Positions 17,717 to 53,026 of a stretch of DNA of 59,833 bases are shown piece after piece. The stretch is from Natronospirales bacterium (GTDB lineage Bacteria; Pseudomonadota; Gammaproteobacteria; Natronospirales; REEB76), in contig JAKAXB010000009.1 of the NCBI GenBank assembly GCA_021816765.1, positions 16,532 through 76,364 of the forward strand, given 5' to 3'. The notes under the pieces were generated by a model, which made no database searches, was not told the origin of the DNA, and saw only the letters and a list, made by a program, of their open reading frames with translations. How positions within the stretch are numbered: the stretch's first letter is position 1; each line of letters opens with the position of its first letter. Both the position numbers and the translations under genes were made by a program.

Positions 17717-19413
<1,697 letters not shown>

Positions 19414-22415: not shown

Positions 22416-22628
22416 CCCGCACCCCTGGTGACAAGAGAATGGGCCGCACGCAGCCCGGCACTCACGCGCGTTGTAGCATGCGGCTGGTGCGCTGCCAAGC
22501 GTGGCAAACCTGGGATTCGGCGCTGCGTGCCCCGGAAGTTCAGGCCCCGCGGGCTCCGCCGTGCCAGCGCTTGTCCCGTCGAGTAAACTGCCGGGGTACT
22601 GTCGTCCAAGCAACCATTGCCTCAGGGC

Positions 22629-23909
22629 ATGAATATCCTCATCGTTGACCATTCCAAGGTATTCCGCACCGTCCTCCACAAGATGGTCGCGAACCTTGGC
22701 CACCACCCCATCTCCGTGGCCACCGCCGAGGAGGCGATTGACCTGCTGCACAAGGAATCCGTGGGGCTGGTGTGCGCGGCGCTGACGCTGCCCGGCATGG
22801 ATGGCATTACCCTCTGCCAGCAGCTGCGGGCCCTGCCCCAGTACCTGAAAACCCCGTTCATACTGCTTACCTCCACCGAGGATCAGCGGCTGCGTCATGA
22901 GGCCTTCGAAGCGGGCGTGACCGAAATCCAGGAACGTACCGATGCCAAGGAGCTCACGGACCGCCTGAGCCGCTTCTTCATGGACGAACAGCAGGAAGTG
23001 CGCGGCAAGGTGCTCTACATCGAAGACAGCCAGGTGGCCGCACACATCATGATCCGGCTGCTGCAGCAGATGAACCTGCATGTGGATCACTTCCGCACGG
23101 CGGATGATGGCTTGGCGGCTTTTGAAAAGGAGAATTACGATCTCATCATCAGCGACATTCTGCTGGAAGGCTCCATCAGCGGCGTGGGCCTGGTGAACCG
23201 CGTGCGCAATTACGCCACGCAGAAACGGCGCGTGCCGATCCTGGCACTCTCCGGTCTGGATGATCCCTCGCGGCGCATCGAGCTGTTCCGCCTCGGTGTC
23301 AACGACTACGCCATCAAGCCGCCTCTTGAGGAAGAAGTACGCGCGCGCGTGCGCAATCTGATCATAAACAAACAATTGCTGGATCAGGTGGAAAAACAGT
23401 CACACCAGCTCTACCAGATGGCCATGAAGGATCAGCTTACCGGTCTCTACAACCGCAATTCACTGCGGGAATTCGCACCGAAGTATTTCAGCAACGCCTC
23501 GCGCTATGACTACCCCCTCAGCCTGCTGGTGATTGATCTTGATCATTTCAAGAACATTAACGACAGTCACGGCCATCTGAGCGGCGATAGCGCGCTGGCG
23601 CAGACCGGTGAAATGCTGCGCCAGGCCTGCCGCGAGGGTGATCTGGCGGCACGTGTCGGCGGCGAGGAATTCGTGGTGCTCCTCAACCATTGCGAGGCGG
23701 ACGATGCGCAGCGCCGCGCCGAGGATATCTGCAAGGCCATCGCGTCACTGCGGCCGGATGGCGTTTCAGTCACTGCCAGTATCGGTGTCACCTCAAGACC
23801 CACGGGTCAGGCGGTGAAATTCGAGGAAATGTTCAAAGTGGCGGATCATGCCATGTACGAAGCCAAGAAACAGGGGCGTAACCGCGTGGCCTTCGTGGCC
23901 TATACCTGA
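22629..23909 (+). CDS. Double-receiver GGDEF response regulator
   Basis: A 426-residue cytoplasmic diguanylate cyclase of PleD-like layout: REC1 (1-120), REC2 (130-250), linker helix, GGDEF (265-425). REC2 keeps the phospho-acceptor Asp in YDLIISDILLEG and the switch Lys in YAIKPP. REC1 has Ala where the Asp should be (GLVCAALTLPGMDG) and no conserved Lys, so it is a pseudo-receiver. The cyclase site is VGGEEF, with the inhibitory site REGD five residues before it. The ATG at 22629 is preferred to the TTG at 22617. No partner kinase is adjacent. Confidence 0.92.
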   Translation: MNILIVDHSKVFRTVLHKMVANLGHHPISVATAEEAIDLLHKESVGLVCAALTLPGMDGITLCQQLRALPQYLKTPFILLTSTEDQRLRHEAFEAGVTEIQERTDAKELTDRLSRFFMDEQQEVRGKVLYIEDSQVAAHIMIRLLQQMNLHVDHFRTADDGLAAFEKENYDLIISDILLEGSISGVGLVNRVRNYATQKRRVPILALSGLDDPSRRIELFRLGVNDYAIKPPLEEEVRARVRNLIINKQLLDQVEKQSHQLYQMAMKDQLTGLYNRNSLREFAPKYFSNASRYDYPLSLLVIDLDHFKNINDSHGHLSGDSALAQTGEMLRQACREGDLAARVGGEEFVVLLNHCEADDAQRRAEDICKAIASLRPDGVSVTASIGVTSRPTGQAVKFEEMFKVADHAMYEAKKQGRNRVAFVAYT

Positions 23910-35247: not shown

Positions 35248-35987
35248 GACTTCACCTCCGCAGAAACACTCGCTCCACGGCGCAGGAATTGCGCCGCCAG
35301 CCAGCCACCACCCAGGTAAAAGGCCACCAGCAGCAACACACTGAGATCGCCATGCCACCACACTGCTTCGCCGGCCAATGCCTCCATGGTCCACAGCGTA
35401 CCGAAGGAGAGAAGCATCGCGCCCACGGCGAACTTGATGGCATTTTCCGGAACCCTGCTCAAAGGCGCACGCACCAGCGCGCCCATGACCATCACCATCA
35501 ACAATGCAGCAAGCGCCGCACCGCCCGCGGTCACCAGTTGCCCCGACTTGGCACCCAAGGCCACCACGATTAGGCAGACTTCCACACCCTCCAGAAACAC
35601 GCCCTTGAAGGCAATGAGACCGGCGGCACGCCGATTAGCGTGCGCCAGTTCACCGCGGGTGTGCTCGAATTCCGCCGCTTCGTCATGCAGGGCCTTGAGA
35701 CCCGCGCTGCGCGCGATGGCTTTCGCGAGCCAGCGCAGGCCGAACAGAATCAGAAACACGCCGATCACGCCGCGCAACCAGCCAATGTGTGCGCCGAGCA
35801 GGAGCAGTCCGCCCCCGCTCAGTGCGAATGCGCCAAGCAGGAGCAGCGCCCAGCACGCCGCAAACAGCGCAATACGCCAGCCGGCCGTAATGCCCACCGC
35901 CAGCACAATGGTGAACGCCTCCACCCACTCCACGCTGGCGGCGAGAAACACTGCCGCGAATACACCCCAGTCAAGATTTGCCGTCAT
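35244..35987 (-). CDS. COG4280-like polytopic membrane protein with ExxE motifs
   Basis: A 247-residue membrane protein with about seven helices. It resembles uncharacterised COG4280 proteins. Two membrane-embedded acidic motifs stand out: SVEWVEAFTIVLAVG (about residues 17-31) and FLEGVEVCLIVVALG (about 130-144). Each has E-x-x-E at the head of a helix, in positions reminiscent of the REGxE motifs of FTR1/EfeU iron permeases, but without the Arg. The ATG at 35987 overlaps the ATPase stop (ATGA). Position at the end of an uptake operon suggests metal or substrate handling, which is inferred. Confidence 0.72.
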   Translation of the reverse strand: MTANLDWGVFAAVFLAASVEWVEAFTIVLAVGITAGWRIALFAACWALLLLGAFALSGGGLLLLGAHIGWLRGVIGVFLILFGLRWLAKAIARSAGLKALHDEAAEFEHTRGELAHANRRAAGLIAFKGVFLEGVEVCLIVVALGAKSGQLVTAGGAALAALLMVMVMGALVRAPLSRVPENAIKFAVGAMLLSFGTLWTMEALAGEAVWWHGDLSVLLLVAFYLGGGWLAAQFLRRGASVSAEVKS

Positions 35988-37036
35988 TTCGTATCCTCCG
36001 TGGGATAAAGAAACACATGTTGTGCATCGAGCGTCAATGCGCCTTGTTTGAGCGGTGGCGTCGTCTCCAGGCTGCATAGCCAGCGCGCGTGTCCCGGCAC
36101 GCGCCAGTAGGCACGGTAGGCCCCTGACTCGAACGCGGAATGGGCCAGCTCGCAGGGCAGGCCGTCGGCACCATTGACGTGCACACCCTCGGGGCGCACG
36201 TACATCTCGCATGGCTCACCCGCGGTAACGTTCATCGCCGTCGCCGGCAAAAAATGACTTTCCACGCGTACACCGGTGACGCCGTTCACCTGCTCCACCT
36301 TGGCCTTTATACCGCCTTCGGCGCCGGTGAAGCGCGCGATGCGCGGCGTGCGGGGGGCCGCGTAAATGACGCTCGGGGCCGCGCACTGCACCAGTCGCCC
36401 GCCTTCCAGCACCGCGATGCGGTCCGCCAAACGCCATGCATCCACGGGATCGTGGCTAACCAGCAGTGTAGTCATGCCCGTCTCCCGCACCGCCTGCAGC
36501 AATTCCATGCGCAATATTTCAGTCGTATCCACGTCGAGGCTTGAGAATGGCTCGTCCAGCAGCAATACGCGCGGTCGGCTGGCGAGTGCACGCGCAATTC
36601 CCACGCGCTGCTGTTCACCGCCGGAAATCTCTCCAGGACGCCGCTGCGCCAGTTCCGCAATTCCCAAGCGTTTCAACAGAACCAGGGATTTCACACGGCC
36701 GTCACGGCGGCGATCGCGTAGTACCATGGCCACATTGTCGAGGCAGCACATGTGCGGCCACAAGGCAAAATCCTGGAATACCATGCCGATGCGGCGCTGC
36801 TGTGGCGAAGTGAACCTTCCCCCGGCAGGATCGTCAACGCACTGTCCCTCGATCAGGATGCGCCCGGCATCCGCCTGTTCAAGACCCGCCGCAAGCCGCA
36901 GCAGCGTGGATTTCCCCGTCCCGGAACCGCCGATCACGACGAGGAATTCCCCTTCCTCGACCTCGAGATCAAGGGTGCGCAGCACCGCGCGCCCGCCGAG
37001 GGATTTTTGCACGGCTTTAAATTGCAACAGGGACAT
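35984..37036 (-). CDS. ABC importer ATPase (Fe(III)/phosphonate type)
   Basis: A 350-residue ATPase of the FbpC/PotA group. Walker A is GGSGTGKSTLL (about residues 36-46), the signature is ISGGEQQRVGIARAL, Walker B is VLLLDEPFSSLD and the switch is LLVSHD. The C-terminal roughly 110 residues form a TOBE-like regulatory domain. The ATG at 37036 lies inside the end of the permease gene (20-bp overlap), and its stop overlaps the next ATG, so permease, ATPase and COG4280-like protein are translationally coupled. Confidence 0.9.
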   Translation of the reverse strand: MSLLQFKAVQKSLGGRAVLRTLDLEVEEGEFLVVIGGSGTGKSTLLRLAAGLEQADAGRILIEGQCVDDPAGGRFTSPQQRRIGMVFQDFALWPHMCCLDNVAMVLRDRRRDGRVKSLVLLKRLGIAELAQRRPGEISGGEQQRVGIARALASRPRVLLLDEPFSSLDVDTTEILRMELLQAVRETGMTTLLVSHDPVDAWRLADRIAVLEGGRLVQCAAPSVIYAAPRTPRIARFTGAEGGIKAKVEQVNGVTGVRVESHFLPATAMNVTAGEPCEMYVRPEGVHVNGADGLPCELAHSAFESGAYRAYWRVPGHARWLCSLETTPPLKQGALTLDAQHVFLYPTEDTK

Positions 37037-38603
37037 CGTTGAACTTCCGGGTGACCGCATGGCTGAGGCGCATGCCACTGAATGCCCCGAGTCCGAGCAA
37101 CAGCAGTATCCCCATGGCGGCGAGTCCAAGTCGTGCCGCCTGGGTGTAATCAAGCGCCTGATTCAAGGAGACGATGGACACGCCGAAAGCGGGGCGTCCG
37201 GGTGGATAAAGCAGTTCCGAGATGGGCAGCTCGAAAAAGATGGCGCCGAACGCAAGCCCGTAACCCCATGCAAGCGGACCGGCCAGGAGCGGTAACCGCA
37301 CCTCCGCTATCCGGGCAGCCGCATCGGGCACGTGCAGCAGGGCCGCCTCATACAGATTGCGGTGCACCTGACTGAGCGGTGCCTGCAGCAACCTGAGCAG
37401 CATGGGAACCTGCGCCGCTCCATAGGCGAGTACCAGGAGCAGGGGTGTACCGTAAAGCGACAGCGGACCGCCGTTGAAGACGATGAGATAGGCTGCTCCC
37501 AGCACCACGCCGGGAATGGCCATGTTGACCAGTGTCAGCATGTTTACGACTTGGCCGTACCAGGTGTGACGCATGCGCAGTGCGGGCCAGATAATGAACA
37601 CGCCGGCAAGCGCGAGCCCGGCCCCCAGCATGGCATAGCACAGGGAGTTGAGCAGACTGGACCAGGCGGCCACATCGCCGGCGGTACCCACCGCCGCACC
37701 GGTGGCCGCATACAGAATTCCACCGAGGGGCAAACACACGCCCAGCAGTGCCAGGCTGCCGATGCCGAGCGGTGCCAGGATGCGCGCCGCCCCGGCCAGT
37801 ATGGAAGGTTCCATTATCCGCGAGCGGGCGTCCTGGACTGCCACACTGTAGCGGCGATGAATGAGTACCTGGGCCGACGCCGCCATCACCGCGAGGCCCA
37901 CCAACGGCAGGCTGAGCAGCGCGGCGGCATGGAAGTCCGGCGGTGCGCTGGCGAGCTGCATATATATGGCGTAGGTGACGATGGGCAGGTGGATGCTCGC
38001 TCCCAGCGTGGCGGGGATGCCGAATTCCTGGATGGTCTCCACAAATACCACGACAAAGGCCGCCGCCGCCGCGGGCAGCAGCAGCGTGCCGACGATGCGC
38101 GCCACCCGTTGTTTCGACATGGGAGACAGGGCAAGGGCTTCAAATACGTCATTGCCCAGCATGCGCCAGGCGGCCAGGCTCGCGAAGTAAGCGAACGGCA
38201 GCCCCTTCATGGTCAGCAGAAAAACAATGCCCGGGATGCCGTTGAACAACCTCGCCCACAAAGTCTCACGCAGCAGCGGCATTTCCATGACGATCTGCCA
38301 GCCGGTGGTGAACAGGTAACTGGGGAACAAAAATAGCGTCCATATCATCGGCGAGATCATGCTCCGCAACGGGAACCGGCGGCGGTCCGAAAGCCAGGCG
38401 ATGGCGAGGCCGGGAAGTACGCTCAGCAGGCTTACTGTGATGCCGATGAGCACGCTATTACGCACCGCCGCGTAGGAGATGGCACCGGATGCATGGCTTG
38501 CGAATGCGCCCAGCAGAAACCAGCCCACCGGCAATACGAATAGCGCAGTGAACAACAGCAACCCGAGTATCGGCCCGGTACGGAAACGACGGCGATCAGA
38601 CAT
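37017..38603 (-). CDS. ABC importer permease, fused double domain
   Basis: A 528-residue inner-membrane permease made of two binding-protein-dependent transport domains in tandem (about residues 45-260 and 300-520), each with about six helices, as in FbpB-type Fe(III) and 2-aminoethylphosphonate transporters. EAA-loop-like segments are EALALSPMSKQRVARIVG in the first half and EAALLHVPDAAARIAEVRLP in the second. ATG at 38603 is preferred; a GTG three codons upstream overlaps the binding-protein stop. Confidence 0.88.
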   Translation of the reverse strand: MSDRRRFRTGPILGLLLFTALFVLPVGWFLLGAFASHASGAISYAAVRNSVLIGITVSLLSVLPGLAIAWLSDRRRFPLRSMISPMIWTLFLFPSYLFTTGWQIVMEMPLLRETLWARLFNGIPGIVFLLTMKGLPFAYFASLAAWRMLGNDVFEALALSPMSKQRVARIVGTLLLPAAAAAFVVVFVETIQEFGIPATLGASIHLPIVTYAIYMQLASAPPDFHAAALLSLPLVGLAVMAASAQVLIHRRYSVAVQDARSRIMEPSILAGAARILAPLGIGSLALLGVCLPLGGILYAATGAAVGTAGDVAAWSSLLNSLCYAMLGAGLALAGVFIIWPALRMRHTWYGQVVNMLTLVNMAIPGVVLGAAYLIVFNGGPLSLYGTPLLLVLAYGAAQVPMLLRLLQAPLSQVHRNLYEAALLHVPDAAARIAEVRLPLLAGPLAWGYGLAFGAIFFELPISELLYPPGRPAFGVSIVSLNQALDYTQAARLGLAAMGILLLLGLGAFSGMRLSHAVTRKFNDVPVAI

Positions 38604-38612
38604 ACACGGCAC

Positions 38613-39656
38613 TCATTGATTCAGTCCCATGACACGGCTGAACCAGGGATTGAGGGTCTTCTCCAGCTTCCCCCAATACACCGGATCAAGATGCGCCAGC
38701 CTCACCCCACTGAAATTCGGCAGCAGCGGATTGACGGGCGATGGCGCCCGCGTCAGCGGCCAATAGAGACTGTCCGCCGAACCCTGATCGCTACGCAAAC
38801 GGTTCCCCGCCGGACTGAGCACGTATTGCATGAACTGACGGGCGGCTGTCAGCTGTTGGCCGTGCAGCCCCGCTGACACCACCATCACGCTCGGCAGATC
38901 GTAGACGGGATGCGGCAGTATCACCTGCAGGGTGGAATTGCGATGCTGGAAGTAGTAGGCGGCGGAAGATTGCACCACCGCCACCCTGATCTCGCCGCTC
39001 TTGAGCGCCATCAGGGTCGCGTCATTCTTGGCGAACACCCGCAGGCCGTTGGCCCGGAGTGCCTTGACAAAGGTCTGTCCCGATGGCCAGCCGCCGCCCT
39101 GAGTCAGCAGCCCCGCAAGCACCGGCAGCGCCGGCCCGGAGATGGCGGGATTGTTCATACCCACCCCACCGCGCAGGTCCGGGCGCAGAAGCTCCGGCCA
39201 GGTGCGGGGCGCCCGGGTGGCGAAATCCCGCGACACCACGAATACACCGGCTAGTGTGAGACCGCTGGGAATATAGGCGCCGTCCGGTGACTGTTCTTCG
39301 AGACCAGTGCGGTTCCAGGCCACGGGAAGTTTGAGACCGCGCATGGCGAGACCGGCCGCCGCCAGTCCTTCCGCGGCCTCCGGTCCGTCGAACCAGGCGA
39401 TATCCCAGTGCGGGTGATGGCCTTCAGCAGTCACGCGCGCCAACAGCGGTCCGGTGCCGAGTCGCACCACCTCCACCGGTTTGCCGCTCACATGCTGATA
39501 GGCTTGGGCCACATCGCCGCAGTAATCCAGCGCGCAATAGAGCACCAGCGCTTCCCCCTGCGGCCGCCACCACAGGTAACCGATGGCTGCGGCCGCGAGC
39601 AGTAGCGCGGCGAGACTCACAAATATCAGGCGCCGCAAGCGATCATACTCCTGCAA
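38613..39656 (-). CDS. Extracellular solute-binding protein of the importer
   Basis: A 347-residue FbpA-like binding protein. A hydrophobic segment at residues 9-29 ends without an obvious cleavage site, so it may stay membrane-anchored. The fold is the two-lobe family-1/6 type: LVLYCALDYCGDVAQAYQ at the start, then WDIAWFDGPEAAEGLAAAG, TWPELLRPDLRGGVGMNNP and GEIRVAVVQSSAAYYF. The double Tyr in SSAAYYF sits where iron-binding Tyr residues occur in FbpA-type proteins, but family members also bind phosphonates or polyamines. It follows tonB by 43 bp. Confidence 0.82.
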   Translation of the reverse strand: MQEYDRLRRLIFVSLAALLLAAAAIGYLWWRPQGEALVLYCALDYCGDVAQAYQHVSGKPVEVVRLGTGPLLARVTAEGHHPHWDIAWFDGPEAAEGLAAAGLAMRGLKLPVAWNRTGLEEQSPDGAYIPSGLTLAGVFVVSRDFATRAPRTWPELLRPDLRGGVGMNNPAISGPALPVLAGLLTQGGGWPSGQTFVKALRANGLRVFAKNDATLMALKSGEIRVAVVQSSAAYYFQHRNSTLQVILPHPVYDLPSVMVVSAGLHGQQLTAARQFMQYVLSPAGNRLRSDQGSADSLYWPLTRAPSPVNPLLPNFSGVRLAHLDPVYWGKLEKTLNPWFSRVMGLNQ

Positions 39657-39699: not shown

Positions 39700-40479
39700 T
39701 CAGCGCGTCGTGTCAAGCCGCACGGCGATCTTGAACGTGGTGTCCTGCTGCGGCAAGCCGCGGGGAAACGGCGGATAGCGGCTGGACTTCACCTTGGCGA
39801 GGGCGGCGTTATCAATCGGCGGTATCCCGCTTGAGTGTGCGAGTTTCGCCCACAGCAGTTGCCCCGACGGGGTCAGCCGGAAAATCACCGTGGCGATGCC
39901 GCGCAAGCGCATGGCGCGCACCATGCCTGGCACCCGCAATCCTGATTGAATTGCCGCATGCAGTCGTGCCGTGTAGCGCGCCAGCACGCTTGCAGTATTT
40001 TCAGCAGGAATGGCCGGCGGCGGCGGCAAGGGTTGCTCCGGCACCTGGAAGGTAGGGTGTGACAGCGGCGTGCGGCTGGAGACTGCGATCACCGGAAGAC
40101 GGGATGCGACGCGCACGGGAGCGGGGGGCGTAACGCGGGCCGGCGTAAGGACGGGCATGGGAGGGGGCGGCAGCGGCGGTGGCGGCTCCACCACATGCAC
40201 CCGCACGCGCAGGGGAGGCCGTGCGACTGCGTGCGCGGGCGCATGCGGAAATCCCCAGGTGATTCCCGCGATTACAGCAGCTTCAATGAGCAACGCGATG
40301 CCGAGCGAACGATAAAAGGGAGCAGATTTGACAGGCCATGTGCGAGGGGACGGCGTCACGGAGAACACCGCCGCCCCCGGCTCCGGAATCGTCGAACCCG
40401 CCGCGGCGGCGGGTCCAGGGGGCAGGTTCCGGCGCACCGACCCGTCGTGCTGACATCCTGCCTGCTCCGACACCTGCAT
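39700..40479 (-). CDS. tonB: TonB energy transducer
   Basis: A 259-residue TonB-type protein. A cytoplasmic N-terminus of about 60 residues leads to one membrane helix (YRSLGIALLIEAAVIAGITW, about 58-77), then a Pro-rich periplasmic spacer (PPPPLPPPPMP and later PEQPLPPPPAIP). The C-terminal TonB domain spans about 170-255, with GIATVIFRLTPSGQLLWAKL and FPRGLPQQDTTFKIAVRL. It starts 13 bp after the receptor gene and so appears dedicated to this operon. Confidence 0.87.
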   Translation of the reverse strand: MQVSEQAGCQHDGSVRRNLPPGPAAAAGSTIPEPGAAVFSVTPSPRTWPVKSAPFYRSLGIALLIEAAVIAGITWGFPHAPAHAVARPPLRVRVHVVEPPPPLPPPPMPVLTPARVTPPAPVRVASRLPVIAVSSRTPLSHPTFQVPEQPLPPPPAIPAENTASVLARYTARLHAAIQSGLRVPGMVRAMRLRGIATVIFRLTPSGQLLWAKLAHSSGIPPIDNAALAKVKSSRYPPFPRGLPQQDTTFKIAVRLDTTR

Positions 40480-40492
40480 ACCGCCCGGATCC

Positions 40493-42958
40493 TCAGAATC
40501 GGGCCGAAGCGGTAAAAAACACCGTGCGCGGGGAACCCGGATAGGCCAGTACGGCCCCCACGCTCTGTGGCACCACAAAATAGCCACCGGCGGAAATCCA
40601 TTCGAAGTTGTTGTACTCCTTGTTCAGAAGATTCAGGACCGACACGCTGAAATCCCACTCGCGCACGGCGCCGCCGTGCATCGGCAGCCTGGCTTGCAGG
40701 GCGGCGTTCAGCAGACCGTAGCCTGGCATCTCCTGGCTGCTGGGGATCGCGAGATTGTCATTGAACATGTGCTCGGCACCGGTGTACTGGTACCAGATAC
40801 GCGGCTCAAGATCCACGTTACCTTCGGGGAAGGCCGTATACAGACCGGCGTTGAACGTGGTGTGGGGGACGTAGGACACCGGCAGGCCGTTGTAGGACAG
40901 TCCGCCTTGCAGATCATAGGTACTGAAATTTGCGTTCTCCAGGCTCAGGTTCACGAACCCATGAATGTTGTACGCAAAGTCATTGTCTGCGTACAGGTTA
41001 AAGCCACGGTACTCGGAACTGCCCGACGCAGAAGTCAGGTACGTGCCGTTTGCGCTGGTGATGCCGATGAGCTGGTTACTGAACTTCAAGTCGTAGCCGT
41101 TGGCCTGCAAGAAGAAATCATGCAGCATTCCTGCGTCCGCAACATGAAGTTTTACCCCCGCCTGCAAGTCGGTGCCTTTCTCCAGCGAAAGCGACGAGGC
41201 GATAATGCTCTGGTACGGACCACCGCCGCCGCCGTTGCCCGGCTGGCGATATGTGGTCGCCCAGTTGGCATATAGCGCAAGCGACGGCGTCGCCTGCCAG
41301 TTGGCATCCATGGAGGGCTCCACCTTGGTGAATGACGTCATCGCGTTCGGCAGTGTGCCTTGGTTGTTGGCGGGATTGGCACCAGGAAAATCCACCGCGC
41401 CGTTTTCCACATAGTCGGTCTGGTAGTTGATCAGCCGGGCACCCGGAGTGAGGGTGAGGGAATCCAGCGGCTTGATGGCGTCCTGCACGAACAAGACCGC
41501 GTTGCGCAGATACCAGTAATTGCTGCGGTAGTGCCCGCTCGGCAGAAACTGGCTGGCATTGAACGGTGGGTTGGGATTCCAGAACGAGTTGCGTGAATTG
41601 TAGACGGAATTCATGTAGGACGCGCCCACGGAAACCGTGTTGTACGGCAGACGGATGTCCTCGTAGAGCCGGTCACCGAACTGGCGGCTGAACGGATTGT
41701 TGTACTCATCAACGTTGTTTGCGCCCTGCTGAAAGTTGTTGTAATGAATGTGCAGACGGTGCCACAACTCGTACCACATCAGGTTATGCAGGGTGGTAGT
41801 ATCGGAAAGGTTGAGGTTGAGCTTGCTGTAGAGGAGTCCGATAGTGTCACTGTCCTCCTTGCGCCAGACGTTAAAGGGCAACTGGCTGTAGTAGCCCGAC
41901 GTAGCCTGGCTGAATTGCGGGCCGGGAACCGGATTGCCATTAGCGTCAATACCATTGATGGTGACGCCCTGGATGGGTGACGTCGGTATGCCTGTCGGAC
42001 GAAACGCAACTCCCTTGGCCGAATACACGCCCAGGCTGAACGTCCCGTTATCCAACTGCTTGCGTGTTTTCAAGAAGCCCGTGTAGGCGCGACTCGGGGA
42101 ATTGAAGCCGTCCGAACTCGTGCGGTAACTGTCTGCCCAGGTGCCGCCGGCCGCTGCCACCGTGCTCCAGCCGTCGTGCGTGCCTGTTTGGGCGTAACCG
42201 TAGATGCCGCGGGTATTGTCCGTGCCGTAGAGGATGCCGGCTTCGCCGCCCGCCTTGGCGGAGGGCTGCAGCGGCACAAAATCGATGCTGCCACCCACCG
42301 CGTTATACCAGCGATCAACCGGATCGCCCGGGCCGTAGGTCACGTTGATACCCTTGAGCAGCTCCAGCTGGTTGACATAGGGCGACTGCCACAGACCCGT
42401 ACCCGGCTCGTTCATGGGCACGTCATCGAAATTGATATCCACACTGCCGTAATCAATGCCGGCGCTGGAAGGTTCACCGCTCCAGCCCTGCTTGATGCCG
42501 TTGATGCTGATGGAATATTTGCTGGCGCCGGTATTCCCATAGCCGTTGATGTGCACGCCGGGGGCGTATTCCAGCGCCTGGGCAGCTCCGGCCGCCGGAC
42601 CCGCCGCCTCGATCTGGCGGCGCCCCAGCACCTTGACGCTTTGTCCCGACTTGAATATCTGTTTCTTGGTGGGCAACTCGCCTTTCCAGGAGGGCTGCAC
42701 CTTCGCGCCCGCGCTCACTTCACCGACATTCACCACTTTGCGGCGGTGCGCCGTCCCCTGGTCGGTCTGCTCGCTGGTCTGAGCGTCTGATGAGGCCATG
42801 TCATTTTGAGGCGGGCTTCCCTCGGCACGGATTTCCGGGCCGACGGGGGCGGAGGGATTGGCCGCGAACAGCGGTTGGATCACACCCAATAGCAACGCCG
42901 CCAGCGATACACCCAGGGCGTCGCGGACGGTCGCAGCGAGTATTCGGGAAGGATGCAT
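40493..42958 (-). CDS. TonB-dependent outer membrane receptor 1
   Basis: An 821-residue outer-membrane receptor. The signal peptide ends near PLFAA (about residue 33). The plug domain (about 95-235) has VKVLGRRQIEAAGPA, LEYAPGVHINGYG and VGGSIDFVPL. A 22-strand barrel follows and ends in the expected aromatic residue (SARF). The ligand is unknown; downstream genes for a Fe(III)/phosphonate-type ABC importer suggest a chelated metal or an organophosphorus compound. It is third in the operon, 86 bp after exbD. Confidence 0.93.
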   Translation of the reverse strand: MHPSRILAATVRDALGVSLAALLLGVIQPLFAANPSAPVGPEIRAEGSPPQNDMASSDAQTSEQTDQGTAHRRKVVNVGEVSAGAKVQPSWKGELPTKKQIFKSGQSVKVLGRRQIEAAGPAAGAAQALEYAPGVHINGYGNTGASKYSISINGIKQGWSGEPSSAGIDYGSVDINFDDVPMNEPGTGLWQSPYVNQLELLKGINVTYGPGDPVDRWYNAVGGSIDFVPLQPSAKAGGEAGILYGTDNTRGIYGYAQTGTHDGWSTVAAAGGTWADSYRTSSDGFNSPSRAYTGFLKTRKQLDNGTFSLGVYSAKGVAFRPTGIPTSPIQGVTINGIDANGNPVPGPQFSQATSGYYSQLPFNVWRKEDSDTIGLLYSKLNLNLSDTTTLHNLMWYELWHRLHIHYNNFQQGANNVDEYNNPFSRQFGDRLYEDIRLPYNTVSVGASYMNSVYNSRNSFWNPNPPFNASQFLPSGHYRSNYWYLRNAVLFVQDAIKPLDSLTLTPGARLINYQTDYVENGAVDFPGANPANNQGTLPNAMTSFTKVEPSMDANWQATPSLALYANWATTYRQPGNGGGGGPYQSIIASSLSLEKGTDLQAGVKLHVADAGMLHDFFLQANGYDLKFSNQLIGITSANGTYLTSASGSSEYRGFNLYADNDFAYNIHGFVNLSLENANFSTYDLQGGLSYNGLPVSYVPHTTFNAGLYTAFPEGNVDLEPRIWYQYTGAEHMFNDNLAIPSSQEMPGYGLLNAALQARLPMHGGAVREWDFSVSVLNLLNKEYNNFEWISAGGYFVVPQSVGAVLAYPGSPRTVFFTASARF

Positions 42959-43044: not shown

Positions 43045-43443
43045 TCAGGGAGCGGGCTGCGCGGCGATGCCGATGTCGCTCACGCCGGCATGACGCACCG
43101 CGTCCATCACGTGCACGAACCGCTGGAAAGGCACACCCCTGGACGCAGCGATGGTGACCTGGGTCTGCGCCGCGCCCCGGCTCTCCAGCAGTTGCTCAAG
43201 ACTGTCCATGGAGAACCGCCGGCCTTTCACGGATACACCGCCATCCTCAGCGATATTTATTGTGACCTGGGGGCGCGGCAGCTCCCGGGCCTCGCTGGAC
43301 TGCGGCAGTAACAGGTTCAGACCCTGGTCAGGCAACATCTGCATGGTGATGACGATGAAAAACACCAGCAGGAAAAACATCACATCAATCATCGGGATGA
43401 TTTCGATGCGCCCCTTGCGGGGCTCGAAATAGCGCATCCGCAT
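43045..43443 (-). CDS. exbD: ExbD/TolR-family proton channel subunit
   Basis: A 132-residue subunit that with ExbB couples the proton gradient to TonB. The single helix carries the essential Asp in IIPMIDVMFFLLVFFIV (about residues 15-31). A short periplasmic domain ends with PFQRFVHVMDAVRHAGVSDI. Two ATGs (43443, 43437) are possible; both lie 2-8 bp after the exbB stop. Confidence 0.93.
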   Translation of the reverse strand: MRMRYFEPRKGRIEIIPMIDVMFFLLVFFIVITMQMLPDQGLNLLLPQSSEARELPRPQVTINIAEDGGVSVKGRRFSMDSLEQLLESRGAAQTQVTIAASRGVPFQRFVHVMDAVRHAGVSDIGIAAQPAP

Positions 43444-43445
43444 TC

Positions 43446-44135
43446 TCAATTCTCCAGGCCGTAGGCAACCGTGTTGCCGACTTTGGCCCGCGGCGCGATC
43501 TGCCCCACGGGGACCAGGGGTGCGCCGTCCAGGCGATTGAGCAGCATGGTGCGCACGGAATCCAGTTGATGCAGGATCACACGCACCTGATTGTTGTAAG
43601 CATTGAAAGCCAGCAGACCGATCATGGCAATGAGCAACCCGCTGGCGGTGGCCATCAAGGCATCGGCGACTCCTCCGGTGACCGCCGTGGGCGCATGTCC
43701 GGGCGCGGCCAGTACATGAAAGGCGTGAAACATGCCGAGGATGGTGCCGAACAGACCCAGGAGCGGCGCCAGGGTGACGATGGTGTCCAATATCCACAAA
43801 CGCCGGTCCAGCTGGGGCGCGATGATCTGGATGCTCTCGTCCAGGCGGTTGCCCAGTTGCTCGATGTTGGCCAGGCCGTAATGCCGGTAGGCGGTATCCA
43901 CCAGCATGGCCTCGGGCAGGTTACCCGCCTCCTCGATCAGTGCCGCGAGATGTTTGCGATCCAATTCCGGTGTGATGGAAAGGGCGCGGACAAATACCCG
44001 GCCCTTGAGGATGGTCTGTCGCAGATGCCAGCCACGATCGAGGATGATCGCCAGCACCAGCAGCAACAGCAGTGCCATCACATACAGTACGCCGTCGGAC
44101 TCACCGGCCAGCATGTGCAAGTATTGCAGAGACAT
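43446..44135 (-). CDS. exbB: ExbB/TolQ-family proton channel subunit
   Basis: A 229-residue three-helix protein: N-terminal helix at residues 15-35, then LWILDTIVTLAPLLGLFGTILGMFHAF (second helix, split here as LWILDTIVTLAPLLGL and FGTILGMFHAF, about 117-143), and a third helix with ADALMATASGLLIAMIGLLAF (conserved part ALMATASGLLIAMIG). The LLGLFGTILGM and ATASGL segments are the family signature. It is first in the importer operon, and a GTTAC direct-repeat box lies 71-86 bp upstream. Confidence 0.93.
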   Translation of the reverse strand: MSLQYLHMLAGESDGVLYVMALLLLLVLAIILDRGWHLRQTILKGRVFVRALSITPELDRKHLAALIEEAGNLPEAMLVDTAYRHYGLANIEQLGNRLDESIQIIAPQLDRRLWILDTIVTLAPLLGLFGTILGMFHAFHVLAAPGHAPTAVTGGVADALMATASGLLIAMIGLLAFNAYNNQVRVILHQLDSVRTMLLNRLDGAPLVPVGQIAPRAKVGNTVAYGLEN

Positions 44136-44192
44136 CGCGCACTCCGGGATGGATCGTGTGAGTGCGCAGCTTAAACAGGATTTGTTGCAGGT

Positions 44193-44221
44193 ATTTTAAG
44201 AAACGGTAACAAAGAAGTAAT
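44193..44221 (-). promoter_or_regulatory. GTTAC direct-repeat operator and -10 box before exbB
   Basis: On the minus strand ATTAC (44217-44221) and GTTAC (44206-44210) are spaced exactly 11 bp, giving units ATTACTTCTTT and GTTACCGTTTC. TAAAAT follows within a few bases of the second unit as a possible -10 box. Direct repeats at 11-bp pitch next to a -10 are the usual geometry for activation by OmpR/PhoB-type regulators. A second example lies at 52695-52744. Confidence 0.5.
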
Positions 44222-44224
44222 GGT

Positions 44225-45148
44225 TCAATGAATTTCCCCGCCGGCGGGTGGATCGTAGCGATACCCCACCCGATGCAGGGTGCGGATGACATTGGCGAGC
44301 CCGTAAGGGGCCAGGGCTTTGCGCAAATGACAAATGTACGCTTTCACGACATCACGATGCGGCTGTTTCGGCTTGACCTGGATAGAAGCCAGCAACATCT
44401 CCGGCGTAAGCACCTGCCCGGGATGGGTGAGGAACTGAATTAGCAGTGTAAAAAGCGCGGGGGAAAGCCGCAGCTCGGAGCCAGCCGCCCATACCCGCCG
44501 GCTTGCGGGATCCGCATGCAAAAGCGCCCGGTTTGTGGGGCACGCGTCCTGCAGCGCCTGAAAACGCCGCCGCAGGACCTCGATGTGCGCCGTCAGGTGT
44601 CCCTGGGAGATCGGGAAGCTCAGATAACGATGCGCCCCCGCCTGCAGCACTCGCAACTCGGTTTCTGCGTCATTCTGCGCGGAAATCACCAGCAGTGGCG
44701 GAGCGTGACGGTCGGCGCTGAATTTCCGGCACCACTCAAGGGTACCCTCGTTCAAGCGGGATTCCGCCACCAGTATCAGGGCCGGCCTGTATTGGGATAT
44801 CTCTTGGGAAAATGCCGCGGGATTCTCTATCACCCGAACCTGGTAACCCTGATTCTCCAGAAGTTCGAGGCACCGGCGACAGCTATCTTTTTCGCTGGAT
44901 TTTACCGCGATGCGATAACGACCGGTCCGCTCATGCGCGTCCAGATCGGGGAGGCTGATGCCCAGGCAAAATGATGCGCCCAGCTTGTTGATACGACTCA
45001 GAACATTACCGAGAGCTGGCAGCGTATGCGGCGCCAGGTGACTTCGCAATACCGCGCCATGATGGACGATTTCTGCAATCACAGTAACAGCCTGGATAGT
45101 GCGCGTGTGGGCCTGGATCGTTCGTGGCGGTACTTCGGCTTGACGCAA
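44225..45148 (-). CDS. Winged-helix response regulator with pseudo-receiver
   Basis: A 307-residue OmpR-like protein. A receiver-like domain spans about 78-195 (YRIAVKSSEKDSCRRCLELL, ALILVAESRLNEGTLEWC, LLVISAQNDAETELRVLQAGA, HRYLSFPISQGHL). The phospho-acceptor Asp is replaced (ILVAES where ILLD is usual), and the conserved switch Lys is missing, so phosphorylation is unlikely. The C-terminal winged helix (about 215-303) is intact: LSPALFTLLIQFLTHPGQVL, DVVKAYICHLRKAL, IRTLHRVGYRY. The first 75 residues are of uncertain status, and the true start may be later. It ends 89 bp upstream of exbB on the same strand. Confidence 0.82.
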   Translation of the reverse strand: MRQAEVPPRTIQAHTRTIQAVTVIAEIVHHGAVLRSHLAPHTLPALGNVLSRINKLGASFCLGISLPDLDAHERTGRYRIAVKSSEKDSCRRCLELLENQGYQVRVIENPAAFSQEISQYRPALILVAESRLNEGTLEWCRKFSADRHAPPLLVISAQNDAETELRVLQAGAHRYLSFPISQGHLTAHIEVLRRRFQALQDACPTNRALLHADPASRRVWAAGSELRLSPALFTLLIQFLTHPGQVLTPEMLLASIQVKPKQPHRDVVKAYICHLRKALAPYGLANVIRTLHRVGYRYDPPAGGEIH

Positions 45149-45312
45149 GCCTACTCCCGTCCTGTGACATATCTTTTACAACTGCGTGAATACCCCGTTC
45201 GCCGGCAGGGCTCATCGGCACGCGGTGGCATGTCGTGAAACGAGGTTGCTTCGAACCGGAGGCCCTTTACTGCACGAAACGGGCTGCCCGGTATTCCCGT
45301 TCAAAAAAAGGA

Positions 45313-45576
45313 TTAACTGCTGCTCACATCCGGGCGTGGCGCGCGGCGGTGTTTATCCGGCATTTGGGAGAGCGACCCGCAGGCAGGACACCTGAAGGCG
45401 ATACGCGTAAAATCAGGTGAAACGATATTTTCAAGCAAAATCGAGTTACAGGACGGGCATTCGTAAGAGGTGTCACCTTTGCCGCTGATACCCGGTATGG
45501 TGGAAATTTCGAAAAGCGTGGTTGCCCGCGGGTCAGGGAGATCCACAAACTCGAGCCGTTGAATGGTCATGGCCAT
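45313..45576 (-). CDS. Small zinc-ribbon protein
   Basis: An 87-residue protein with two CxxC pairs, CPSC (about residues 40-43) and CPAC (about 63-66), the layout of a zinc ribbon. The N-terminal 35 residues (MTIQRLEFVDLPDPRATTLF) and the basic tail are not recognisable. An ATG at MTIQRL (two codons later) is also possible. A nucleic-acid or protein-binding role is plausible by fold only. Confidence 0.6.
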   Translation of the reverse strand: MAMTIQRLEFVDLPDPRATTLFEISTIPGISGKGDTSYECPSCNSILLENIVSPDFTRIAFRCPACGSLSQMPDKHRRAPRPDVSSS

Positions 45577-45700
45577 TGCCTCCGATTATTGGACCGACGA
45601 CGTGGGTTTTCTTTTCATCCGGGGAAAGCATACTCTTGCTGGTACAGCCGTTACCGTTTCGAGTTCGCCGCTTCCCATATTTCATGGAATTGAAACATAA

Positions 45701-45731
45701 CTGTCATATTTCAATTGTCATAAATAGTCAT
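45701..45731 (+). promoter_or_regulatory. TGTCAT-like repeats upstream of ppx
   Basis: CTGTCAT (45701-45707), TTGTCAT (45715-45721) and AGTCAT (45726-45731) lie 17-47 bp before the ppx start. They resemble Pho-box half-sites, but the spacing (14 and 10-11 bp) is irregular compared with the 11-bp pitch of a true Pho box. Confidence 0.3.
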
Positions 45732-49533: not shown

Positions 49534-49636
49534 TAAGGGCGGGGTTGTGGGAGTACTCGGTCAGGATGGGAGAATCCTGATCGGCATCTTAAAGAATATA
49601 CGGAACAGATTACCGGTCAGTGACACTATCATGAAA

Positions 49637-50195: not shown

Positions 50196-52574
50196 CTAGA
50201 AACCAGCGGTCAAGCGCACAAAGACGAAACGGGGCATACCGATGAGCCCCTGGATGAAGGAATTATTATTCACGTCCTGATTGACAAATGCATAGTTGTA
50301 ATAGGTCTTGTCCAGCAGATTGTAAATGTTCAGTGAGAGCTTGAGCGATTTCAGGGCAACAGCCCCGGGCAGAGAAAATCTGTAGGAGCCGCCTGCGTTC
50401 AGCGTAGTGTACCCACCCAGAGTAAAGGTGGAAGTAAGGCTGTTCGTGAAGTAACTCGTGTGCCGCGGACCTGTGTATCGCATGTACAGATCCGCCGTGA
50501 CCGGCCCCTGCCCGTAGCCGTAGCGTATGCCGACATTAGCGAGTTTCTCCGGTACGTAGGCGACCGGTGCCGCGGGGGCGGCGGATTGCGTGAAGGGATC
50601 AACGAATGACCCATAATTCGCCTGATTAAGCGTGTAATTGGCGAACGCGGACCAGATACGGGTAAATTGATTCTCGACCGACCACTCCACGCCCTGGTAC
50701 CGTGCCGTACCGCCGTTGAACTGGACGCCGAGACCGGCATATTGACCTGTCTGCGGCGAATAACTCTGGAACTGATTTTCAAAGTCTTCGCGATAAACAT
50801 CCACGGAGGCGAGAATCGTCTTAGTCACATAACGCAGACCCAACTCCTTGTCCGTCACGAACTCCGGTAAAAGAGTCAGAGGTGGAATGACGTTCTGTCC
50901 CTGGCTATTCGGGACACCGATCGCACTATAATAAGCACTGATTTCAGGAACCTTGAAAGTCTTGCCCCAGCTTCCATAGGCGATCACATGAGGTGTGAAC
51001 GCATAGCTCACCCCCAGTGACGGAGAAGTGTAATGCTCTGTGTTGCTGATCGTGCCGCCAAAAGCATAATAGTAACCTGCATTGTCCGCGTCGGTGGTAT
51101 CCACCTGCGTATATTTGAGGCCGGGAGTAATGTGCAGCATGTCATGCAGAATATGGATATCGTCCTGAATGAAAGTCTCAAGGAAGTCGCGCTGATCCCG
51201 CTCATTCCAGGCATTGTTGTACAGGTTCACGCATGGCATGGGGGTGGAGCCGTACCAGCATTCCTCGGAAAGTAACGTGCCATATAGGAAATTGCCTCCG
51301 ATGATGAGTGTGTTGTGCGGCAGAGATATCCGCATCTGCGGCATCACGCCCAATGATGAGGAATGGTCCATGTAGAGGTGATCCTGCGTGCCGGCATACG
51401 CTGATCCGAATAATGCCACGGGATCATATGAGTTATTGGGCTGCGGCTGCCCAGCCCAGTTTTCCGGCTCGTTGGGCAGAAAATAGGGCTGCAAGGGATT
51501 GACCTCAGGAATATATGCCGGGTTCGTGTATGACACGCGATTATATGTGTTGCCCACGTAGTATGTTTTAATATCGAACAGCGTGTTCTTCGAAAGCGCG
51601 CTTTTAAAATCAATGATGCCGATTTTATGCGCGTCCCAATTATAGGAATTCGACCAATTGACAGGCCACTGATAATCGCTACCGAATTCATTGATCAGCG
51701 CTACCGGGACGTTGTGGGGCGTGTACCCTTGATTATGGTTTTCGATTAAATAAACATTTAATTCCGATAATCCCGCGTTGAAATCCTTTTCGGCGGCCAA
51801 ATAGACATTGCTGTTGGTGTCCGACGTATTCTGCAGCCAGCCATGCGTGGTGTTCTTTCCGGCACTGATTAGAAACTTATAGCCGTCAAGCGATCCGGTG
51901 TTCACCGTGGCACCGTAGTCGCGCGTGGAAAAACTGCCGGCTCCCACATGCACTTCCACCCCATATTTATCCGACGGCTGCTTGGGCAGGTAATTGATCG
52001 TCCCGCCGAGTGAAAAGAGGGAATTCACATCCGGGTTATTTATGCCCCGGTAAATATCGATTCCGGAGATATTGCCCAGGGTCAATGGAATGGCATTGCG
52101 ATTGGAGGCAAAGTTGGTTGATCCCGCGTTGAAGAGATCATTGAGCGGAATGCCGTCGAAAGTCTCGGAGATCTGACTGCCGGTAAACCCGCGAAACTGG
52201 ACCGTGGTGCGCATGCCATTCGGGCCTTCGCTGTACGCATTGATGCTGGGAGTAAGGTTCAGGATGGTCTGGATGTTGGTCGCGGGTGATTGCTCCCGGA
52301 TGGTCGTTGGGCCGATGGTGGTCTCCGTGAAGGTGGCCTTTTTGAGCTTTTTCTTCAAGGTTTTCACCGTGTGAGCACTGGCGGAGACGCCGCTGACATT
52401 GATCGCCTGATCGGCGGTTCCGCTGGAAGCACTGTCCTGCGCGAGGGCTCCCTCGTTAATGGTCATGGTCAGTGACGTGACCAATACAAAACCAATGATG
52501 GCTCTCAACAGAGAAGAAGCGCACAGCAGTTTGGGTTCATTGAGGGCGCGTGACGAGCTTATCCACATGACCAA
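50196..52574 (-). CDS. TonB-dependent outer membrane receptor 2
   Basis: A 792-residue receptor with a long signal region (helix about 24-40, cleavage near GALAQ). The plug (about 60-220) has TTIREQSPATNIQTILNL, TVQFRGFTGSQISETFDG and LFSLGGTINYLPKQP. The barrel contains GLRYVTKTILASVDVYRE and ends in RLTAGF with the terminal Phe. It shares the general layout of receptor 1 but not close identity. It is divergent from the phosphoesterase gene, and four GTTAC-type repeats lie upstream, matching the exbB promoter box. The ligand is unknown. Confidence 0.92.
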   Translation of the reverse strand: MVMWISSSRALNEPKLLCASSLLRAIIGFVLVTSLTMTINEGALAQDSASSGTADQAINVSGVSASAHTVKTLKKKLKKATFTETTIGPTTIREQSPATNIQTILNLTPSINAYSEGPNGMRTTVQFRGFTGSQISETFDGIPLNDLFNAGSTNFASNRNAIPLTLGNISGIDIYRGINNPDVNSLFSLGGTINYLPKQPSDKYGVEVHVGAGSFSTRDYGATVNTGSLDGYKFLISAGKNTTHGWLQNTSDTNSNVYLAAEKDFNAGLSELNVYLIENHNQGYTPHNVPVALINEFGSDYQWPVNWSNSYNWDAHKIGIIDFKSALSKNTLFDIKTYYVGNTYNRVSYTNPAYIPEVNPLQPYFLPNEPENWAGQPQPNNSYDPVALFGSAYAGTQDHLYMDHSSSLGVMPQMRISLPHNTLIIGGNFLYGTLLSEECWYGSTPMPCVNLYNNAWNERDQRDFLETFIQDDIHILHDMLHITPGLKYTQVDTTDADNAGYYYAFGGTISNTEHYTSPSLGVSYAFTPHVIAYGSWGKTFKVPEISAYYSAIGVPNSQGQNVIPPLTLLPEFVTDKELGLRYVTKTILASVDVYREDFENQFQSYSPQTGQYAGLGVQFNGGTARYQGVEWSVENQFTRIWSAFANYTLNQANYGSFVDPFTQSAAPAAPVAYVPEKLANVGIRYGYGQGPVTADLYMRYTGPRHTSYFTNSLTSTFTLGGYTTLNAGGSYRFSLPGAVALKSLKLSLNIYNLLDKTYYNYAFVNQDVNNNSFIQGLIGMPRFVFVRLTAGF

Positions 52575-52694
52575 ACCTCCAGTTATAATAAAACGACCGA
52601 TGGGATGCGGGATACCGACACAGCCAAGCTAAGGACACTAGCCTGACAATTTTGCAAAACGATGGCGTGAGGATGAATGATCGGTGTCAAGCGG

Positions 52695-52744
52695 GTAACA
52701 ATCAGGTAACGGTCATGATGTCTTCTGAATAACCGTTCCGTAAC
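52695..52744 (-). promoter_or_regulatory. Two GTTAC direct-repeat operators before receptor 2
   Basis: On the minus strand: GTTAC at 52740-52744 and GTTAT at 52729-52733 (11 bp apart), then GTTAC at 52706-52710 and GTTAC at 52695-52699 (11 bp apart), with 23 bp between the pairs. The last two units read GTTACCTGATT and GTTACCCGCTT and run into TTGACA, a good -35 box. The pattern matches the box at 44206-44221. Confidence 0.55.
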
Positions 52745-52792
52745 AACTCTCCCCGATAGCAAATAGCAATCAGATCGCGCGTTTAATGAAGA

Positions 52793-52814
52793 ACCTCGCG
52801 GCAAGCCGCGAGGT
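52793..52814. repeat. GC hairpin, probable REP-like element
   Basis: Ten-bp perfect arms (ACCTCGCGGC and its complement) flank AA. A smaller related hairpin, GCCGC-AA-GCGGC, follows at 52843-52854. The pair with a common AA loop looks like a short intergenic repeat unit. No T-tract follows, so a terminator is less likely. Confidence 0.4.
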
Positions 52815-52889
52815 ATCAAATCCGAATCCAGTCACATCATTCGCCGCAAGCGGCAGGGAATTGAACCCCAAGTGATTAAAATGTGAATG

Positions 52890-52912
52890 AGAATACTGAA
52901 ATGTAGTATTCT
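52890..52912. promoter_or_regulatory. Inverted repeat upstream of the phosphoesterase gene
   Basis: Perfect 8-bp arms AGAATACT and AGTATTCT with a 7-bp spacer, in the only AT-rich part of the region. It is a candidate operator for the plus-strand gene; the regulator is unknown. Confidence 0.4.
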
Positions 52913-53026
52913 AAAATCACGTCCGTATATAATCGGATAAAGTCGGGTAATTGCTTTGACGACCGCCATGCATGAACTCGTCTAGCGGAATGCATCCCCA
53001 ACGCCGGCACAAGCGGAGCTTGAAGT

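Follow-up and report, generated by a model that had tools for sequence, protein, structure and literature searches.

REG, an OmpR/PhoB-type regulator of a Natronospirales bacterium, would be a PhoB-derived transcription factor working outside phosphotransfer, with the receiver fold and its output half kept and the active site lost. Kinase-independent control of the adjacent TonB-dependent uptake operon by REG is well supported as a prediction, because the active-site residues are lost in all four genomes with the gene, no HATPase gene lies beside it, and the putative operator and the gene order are kept. Six features are established at the level of sequence: the lost residues, the position of the start codon, the kept gene order, the joint occurrence of REG with the operon, the conserved putative operator and the Pho-box-like array. 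The DNA analysed (59,833 nucleotides of contig JAKAXB010000009.1; hereafter, the window) belongs to genome G000, and the orthologues of REG are those of G012, G013 and G016 (feature positions in Table 1).

Table 1. Positions of the REG gene, the uptake operon and the regulatory elements in the window.
Feature	Position	Strand	Remark
REG, OmpR/PhoB-type regulator, 285 aa	44225..45082	-	GTG start at 45082
REG domain layout	N-extension residues 1-54; pseudo-receiver 55-178; winged helix 187-279		
exbB (MotA_ExbB), first operon gene	43446..44135	-	
exbD (ExbD/TolR)	43045..43437	-	start chosen by hand
TBDR1, TonB-dependent receptor	40493..42958	-	
tonB	39700..40587	-	ORF as listed, true start not fixed
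Periplasmic solute-binding protein of ABC importer	38613..39656	-	
ABC importer permease	37017..38612	-	
ABC importer ATPase	35984..37153	-	
Putative exbB operator, 11-bp direct repeat TTACTTCTTTG / TTACCGTTTCT	44195..44220	-	kept in 4/4 genomes
Inverted repeat over exbB ribosome-binding site, stem GCGCACTC/GAGTGCGC	44137..44167	-	lower arm placed by hand
Pho-box-like array before REG, in three units of 11 bp ATTCACGCAGT TGTAAAAGATA TGTCACAGGAC	45159..45191	-	76 bp before GTG
Pho-box-like repeats upstream of ppx	45680..45731	+	
Pho-box-like pair upstream of ppk	49615..49636	-	

The open reading frame at 44225..45148 (minus strand) listed in the preliminary description is present, but the N-terminus of 75 residues read from it proved to be a start-site error. 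A TTG start at 45148 (307 aa) is very unlikely: G012, whose orthologue is 86-87% identical to REG of the window, has an in-frame TAG 12 codons into the reading from TTG, and the start codons of the four genomes (GTG, GTG, GTG and ATG) align at 45082 of the window. The in-frame TAG and the aligned starts thus give a REG of 285 aa, with a weakly conserved extension of about 54 residues before the receiver. REG matched PF00486 (Trans_reg_C; 53 bits, cut-off 26.2), above the cut-off in 4/4 orthologues, and matched PF00072 (Response_reg) weakly, above the cut-off (35.4 bits; cut-off 30.2). PF00072 was above its cut-off in the G000 and G012 orthologues and was not detected at E 0.01 in those of G013 and G016. 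The top NCBIfam match of REG was PhoB (TIGR02154), yet at 89.1 bits it was far below the cut-off of 296.2 and REG is not a member of that family, whose active site it lacks.

The acceptor region of PhoB aligned with L104-V105-A106-E107-S108 of REG in the window, identical in G012, and read V-F-L-Q-S in G013 and V-M-L-Q-S in G016. The acceptor Asp position was A, A, L and L across the four orthologues, the acidic pair was S62-S63 in the window (SS, SS, CP and CP, with C-P in G013 and G016), and the switch Lys was F156 in the window (Phe, Phe, Phe and Tyr, with Tyr in G016). Thr was replaced by Ser in all four orthologues, and Tyr at K-3 and Pro after the K position were kept. The preliminary description had reported the acceptor Asp and the switch Lys as lost, and both losses held in 4/4 orthologues; no Asp occurs at positions 104-108 in any of them, so that a corrected alignment with an intact acceptor Asp was rejected. 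REG is accordingly an aspartate-less receiver (receiver fold without the acceptor Asp) and not a canonical response regulator, with the Asp, both acidic residues and the Lys absent in 4/4 and the Ser kept. Because the active site is lost in four genomes, a sequencing error in a single one does not explain it. In the genome of the window, six further regulators have Asp at the acceptor position. Elsewhere in the window, a PleD-like protein with two receivers and a GGDEF domain (22617-23909) reads VCAALTLPGMDG in its first receiver where the acceptor Asp is expected, and its second receiver (LIISDILLEG) keeps the Asp (placed by eye).

A structure model of REG built on the four sequences (pLDDT 69, pTM 0.45; moderate confidence) predicted the five strands and the helices of a receiver in order, plus the winged helix. 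Its closest full-length structural match was KdpE (4kfc), and the receiver of the model matched the activated PhoB receiver 1zes (TMt 0.82). Invariant positions were more frequent in the output half of the receiver (beta4-alpha5; 25/53) than in the input half (beta1-alpha3; 15/71; Fisher p 0.003), and one PhoB orthologue pair was even (46/55 and 60/73, respectively). The K+2 position, after the Pro, was I, I, V and L in the four orthologues, and Ile, Leu and Val at K+2 are described as shifting CheY to active conformations (PMC12632262). Conservation of the output half and the residues at K+2 would fit a receiver that serves for dimerisation and no longer accepts phosphate.

Eight PF00486 matches were found in the genome of the window, one of them (C15:18469) within a 655-aa frame. 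The other six receiver-bearing OmpR-type genes each had a HATPase match within about 1.1 kb; REG had no such partner histidine kinase nearby, the nearest HATPase gene being about 19.5 kb away at C2:80529. A distant partner kinase is possible. The same genome encodes an intact PhoB (C18:209206; TIGR02154 322 bits, cut-off 296) with an adjoining HATPase match. The winged helix of REG, which the preliminary description called intact, is so in its fold but not in its recognition helix, which is unlike that of PhoB (HRDVVKAYICHLRK in REG of the window vs. EERTVDVHIRRLRR in the genome's own PhoB).

REG was followed by exbB, exbD, TBDR1 and tonB in 4/4 genomes, directly before exbB each time; in G000, G013 and G016 the ABC genes came next after tonB. 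No ABC importer genes were found after tonB in the 20 kb read of G012 (L017 3064-6837), where cysM was the next recognised gene, though the receptor is 98% identical. Both REG (E <= 1e-20) and TBDR1 (E <= 1e-100) were found in the same 4/19 genomes of the order, and neither was found in the other 15 (p 0.0003, ignoring relatedness). Ten of the 19 genomes, three of them with REG, reached 90% completeness with no more than 5% contamination, and some absences of REG and TBDR1 may therefore be gaps. A receptor alignment search of a 398-genome sample of the phylum (E <= 1e-180) returned only the window's own genome.

The nearest solved relatives of the solute-binding protein were Fe(III) and pyridoxal-phosphate binders, and its NCBIfam matches were to 2-aminoethylphosphonate binders, all far below the cut-off. 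From these likenesses, the candidate substrates of the operon would be iron, a complex of iron with phosphate, or a phosphorus-containing organic compound. In G000 and G012, ppx and ppk were close to REG; the 20 kb read of G013 and of G016 showed neither gene. Between REG and ppx, the window encodes a zinc-ribbon-like protein of 87 aa with two CxxC pairs (45313-45576), 100% identical over 82 aa in G012 vs. 87% for the adjoining REG. Beside ppk (50196-55810), a second TonB-dependent receptor (792 aa) and a 927-aa protein matching a phosphoesterase family (PF04185, 31 bits, cut-off 23) are encoded divergently, and the two are possibly another phosphate-linked uptake pair.

The distance of 89 bp between REG and exbB given in the preliminary description was confirmed (gap 44136-44224), as was its GTTAC box, since GTTACCG lies in the gap within an 11-bp direct repeat; the gap was 96 bp in G013 and 98 bp in G016. 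The repeat TTACTTCTTTG TTACCGTTTCT (44199-44220 of the window) had aligned copies in G012, G013 and G016. In three genomes its self-matches were most numerous at an offset of 11 (10, 12 and 12 of 22), and in the window that offset was tied (8 of 22). An operator pattern made from the four sequences, allowed up to 3 mismatches and run against those same genomes, matched one site per genome in 4/4, the expected one, and its reversed control had no match in them. With one match per genome, this may be the sole site of its type that REG targets. Direct repeats of GTAA are common in the OmpR-type family. We infer that REG binds the exbB repeat, which could be read by another OmpR-type regulator.

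Two other modes of control were considered. The stem over the exbB ribosome-binding site, also present in the folds of G013 and G016, had weak folding support (z -0.7 to -1.5), and an RNA switch there was set aside. No Fur site was found before REG and exbB in the four genomes: the best 19-mer had 8-10 of 19 matches to the Fur consensus, a fraction of 0.665 to 1.0 of 200 shuffles did as well, and Fur control was rejected.

An 11-bp half-site matrix was derived from 11 TGTCAY-N5-TGTCAY sites away from the operon, in the genus and in G296, a genome of a different family; its loci were picked by the same core motif, and the array before REG had been noticed before the matrix was built. Five of the eight scanned genes adjoining sites of this type were pst genes (pstB x3, pstC and pstS) above the NCBIfam cut-off, the other three having no NCBIfam match at E 1e-10, and the TGTCAY motif therefore most likely represents their Pho box. 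The array before REG, at 68-76 bp from the start codon across the four genomes, had a triple score reached by 0/300 dinucleotide shuffles in each of them, and pair scores with p of 0.003, 0, 0 and 0.003. As in a Pho regulon member, the promoter of REG thus carries a Pho-box array, with imperfect half-sites. The array is weak in the genus: TGTAAA stands at one half-site, and in the window the triple score reaches 5.3 bits vs. 35 in G296 and the pair score alone gave p 0.003 (300 shuffles) or 0.015 (26-gene test).

Among the upstream regions of 26 hand-chosen genes of the window, not all its genes, the triple score was reached by 0/200 shuffles for REG, ppx and ppk alone; p was 0.01 for TBDR2 and for the gene at 17717, and 0.03 for exbB. 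A simple pair pattern for Pho boxes had 3 matches in the window vs. 3.0 expected. Pairs of TGTCAT (exact or with one mismatch) were scarce in the genus, numbering 7, 4, 8 and 8 in G000, G012, G013 and G016 vs. 0, 2, 2 and 6 for the reversed control, little above control in G012 and G016. Upstream of exbB, the triple score had p of 0.01, 0.11, 0.01 and 0.19 in G000, G012, G013 and G016, respectively, and the exbB repeat was at most a marginal Pho box in the genus (pair scores -6.4 to 6.1). Given the p of 0.01 in G000 and G013, PhoB may make some contact before exbB in the genus.

Outside the genus, G296 had a relative of REG with the same operon order and with TGTCAT arrays before both the regulator and exbB. 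This locus had 10 TGTCAT-array matches vs. 0.77 expected, the array before exbB being a clear Pho box, and the G296 genome had 17 TGTCAT-pair sites vs. 0 for the reversed control. A REG profile search of the class gave a match at E <= 1e-25 in 10 other genomes of 369, all outside the genus and 10/10 with Asp at the acceptor position; these matches were PhoB-like, with 9/9 scanned above the PhoB cut-off. The search scored at most six candidates per genome and missed the G296 relative, found via the receptor, so that absence elsewhere is weakly supported.

Receptor searches gave 7/369 genomes of the class (own included) and 8/9 genomes of one order, from which 19 loci were fetched. A winged-helix gene lay upstream on the same strand at 11 of these loci (G346:C65, G135:C9, G296:C37, G250:C63, G387:C21, G385:C10, G384:C22, G386:C109, G388:C6, G385:C12 and G223:C4) and divergently at one (G279:C3). 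G387:C60 had a partial winged-helix match in a 108-aa frame, and G296:C21 a divergent canonical response regulator (receiver 77 bits). No winged-helix gene was found at four loci (G279:C6, G250:C84, G386:C55 and G384:C78), and none was seen at G223:C48, where the receptor begins near the contig end. Two ORFs of L100 and L101 (493 and 421 aa) that suggested winged-helix/TonB fusions were in the wrong frame, the regulator being a separate ORF.

All 12 non-canonical winged-helix genes matched Trans_reg_C and had no receiver by Pfam (E 0.001 for three genes and E 0.01 for nine), the G223 gene being cut by a run of N with its N-terminus not fully visible. The regulators of G135 and G346 had Asp at the aligned acceptor place and the Lys gone, and in most of the 12 genes the N-terminus may or may not stem from a receiver. 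Nine of the 11 regulators tested for Pho arrays (G223 left out) had a triple score with p 0 of 200; G388 had p 0.055, with an exact pair inside its longer frame, and G279:C3 had no Pho array (p 0.305). In a tree of winged helices, REG grouped with G296 and G223 (86/88) and nine other receptor-linked regulators grouped together (92/83), both groups among PhoB-like rows, and a very long branch set G279 apart. A single origin of the receptor-linked regulators appeared in 17% of bootstrap trees, with long branches, and one or two origins are both possible on the sequences compared. In G279 (L106 4147-5512), a distant TBDR1 relative is followed past its 3' end by two more overlapping winged-helix genes, with no receiver found by Pfam.

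It is moderately probable, as read from these sequences, that phosphorylated PhoB sets the supply of REG and that REG acts at exbB without a kinase. Phosphorylated PhoB would bind the Pho-box-like array about 70 bp upstream, and REG would be made under phosphate starvation. As a constitutive dimer, REG would then bind the 11-bp direct repeat before exbB and would activate, rather than repress, the exbB-exbD-TBDR-tonB-ABC uptake operon, its activity being set mainly by supply, with no phosphate on REG.

The preliminary description had suggested direct ligand sensing or protein contact instead of a kinase. Its first half, control without a kinase, agrees with the residues lost in 4/4 genomes; for its second half, the sole pointer was the His-rich N-terminus. 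Sensing of a ligand, metal or partner protein by the pseudo-receiver and/or the N-extension, gating DNA binding at exbB, is unlikely. Three His of the REG N-terminus are invariant (H7, H8 and H15), short His-rich starts recur in the regulators of G296, G135, G346, G388 and G250, and covalent modification or ligand binding are named in PMC12632262 as the prime candidates for one pseudo-receiver of unknown activation. The N-extension was, however, the least conserved domain of REG (8/54 positions invariant in four orthologues), had no Pfam match and was modelled without confidence (residues 1-54, pLDDT < 50), and the His-rich start was missing in the G384, G386 and second G385 regulators and reduced to one His in those of G385 and G387. 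No ligand candidate follows from the sequence, and the amount of REG made is a simpler input than ligand sensing, given the upstream Pho-box-like array.

That REG is a minor modulator or a decaying relic, and that a PhoB-controlled transcript from before REG reads through into exbB, is rather unlikely. Agreeing with it, REG and exbB are on the same strand 89 bp apart, and dN/dS of REG between G000 and G012 was 0.61, not significantly below neutral (p 0.075), vs. 0.03-0.14 for six other OmpR-type regulators (one pair saturated), differing from five pooled regulators (p 4e-9). In the same genome pair, dN/dS was 0.08 for exbB, TBDR1 and ppk, 0.25 for exbD and 0.29 for tonB. Between G000 and G013, dN/dS of REG was 0.25 (dN 0.485 and dS 1.98, near saturation), and the winged helix was identical at 62/93 positions. 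Against a relic, the open frame, start codon and winged helix were kept in 4/4 genomes over a long divergence, among the 19 genomes REG and TBDR1 were found together or not at all, and exbB has a conserved repeat of its own. REG evolves fast, and its frame is still open and its winged helix kept. The absence of any stop or frameshift in 285 codons speaks against a pseudogene, but with the high dN/dS of the closest pair this possibility stays part of the relic reading.

Repression of the operon by REG, or its competition with PhoB at Pho-like repeats, is very improbable: the position of the repeat relative to the promoter, judged by eye, allows either sign and G296 has the same motif before both regulator and exbB, but the marginal Pho-box character of the exbB repeat in the genus makes competition for one site less likely.

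Supply of REG set by PhoB could be part of a wider pattern, which we put forward tentatively. This kind of receptor would have its own PhoB-derived one-component regulators, with the receiver fading by stages, control shifted from phosphorylation of the regulator to PhoB-set supply, recognition helix and operator co-changing in the genus, and the His-rich N-terminus perhaps becoming a new direct sensor in some lineages. By stage, the receiver was detectable without its active site in G000 and G012, and undetected by Pfam in G013, G016 and G296. In a further family the regulators were barely receiver-like, and 8/9 genomes searched had the receptor with an adjacent regulator.

Pseudo-receiver OmpR-type factors, and PhoB-like genes beside such operons, are already known (PMC12632262, PMC2631029). 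Like REG, the aspartate-less receivers and pseudo-receivers described in PMC4395418, which counted 609 of the OmpR type, and in PMC12632262 have a receiver fold and winged-helix output with the acceptor Asp and other residues lost; REG differs in having lost 4/5 active-site residues, in its 54-aa extension and in its link to Pho-box-like repeats and a single TonB uptake operon. HP1043/HsrA and CosR of epsilonproteobacteria and ChxR of Chlamydia are likewise OmpR/PhoB-type factors, described as orphan or phosphorylation-independent, and the structural matches of REG included CosR 8uvx and 2hqr (titled atypical orphan response regulator). Essentiality is described for HP1043 and CosR, whereas REG occurs in part of one genus, together with one operon. 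SsoR of Shewanella is described in PMC12442407 as an orphan, phosphorylation-independent activator of siderophore genes, controlled by its amount and active once made; unlike REG, which has lost the site and has a Pho-like array with no Fur-like site found, SsoR is still phosphorylatable and its gene is under Fur.

The literature on a receptor with an orphan response regulator and exbB includes PMC8891985 (Shewanella SO_2426) and PMC7688217. The same neighbourhood, a PhoB-like OmpR family regulator with ExbBD-TonB and a TonB receptor, was reported in Acidithiobacillus and Leptospirillum, where TonB clusters lie downstream of such regulators and an iron-phosphate circuit was proposed (PMC2631029). 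Fur sites were predicted for those acidophile clusters, whereas none was found before REG and exbB, and the active sites of the receivers do not figure in the account given there (PMC2631029). In the literature searched, neither the combination of a pseudo-receiver PhoB-like regulator, a TonB operon and a Pho array nor the regulator family was found described, though parts of its neighbourhood are.

The mechanisms by which bacterial pseudo-receivers are activated or inactivated remain a mystery according to a 2025 review (PMC12632262), and REG is a case with a concrete, testable answer, namely that its supply would be controlled by its own intact relative, PhoB. In each genome a single target site is predicted for it, and its relatives represent several stages in the loss of the receiver. 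An uptake system otherwise filed under iron would thereby be tied to the phosphate-starvation response, as PMC2631029 suggested for the acidophiles.
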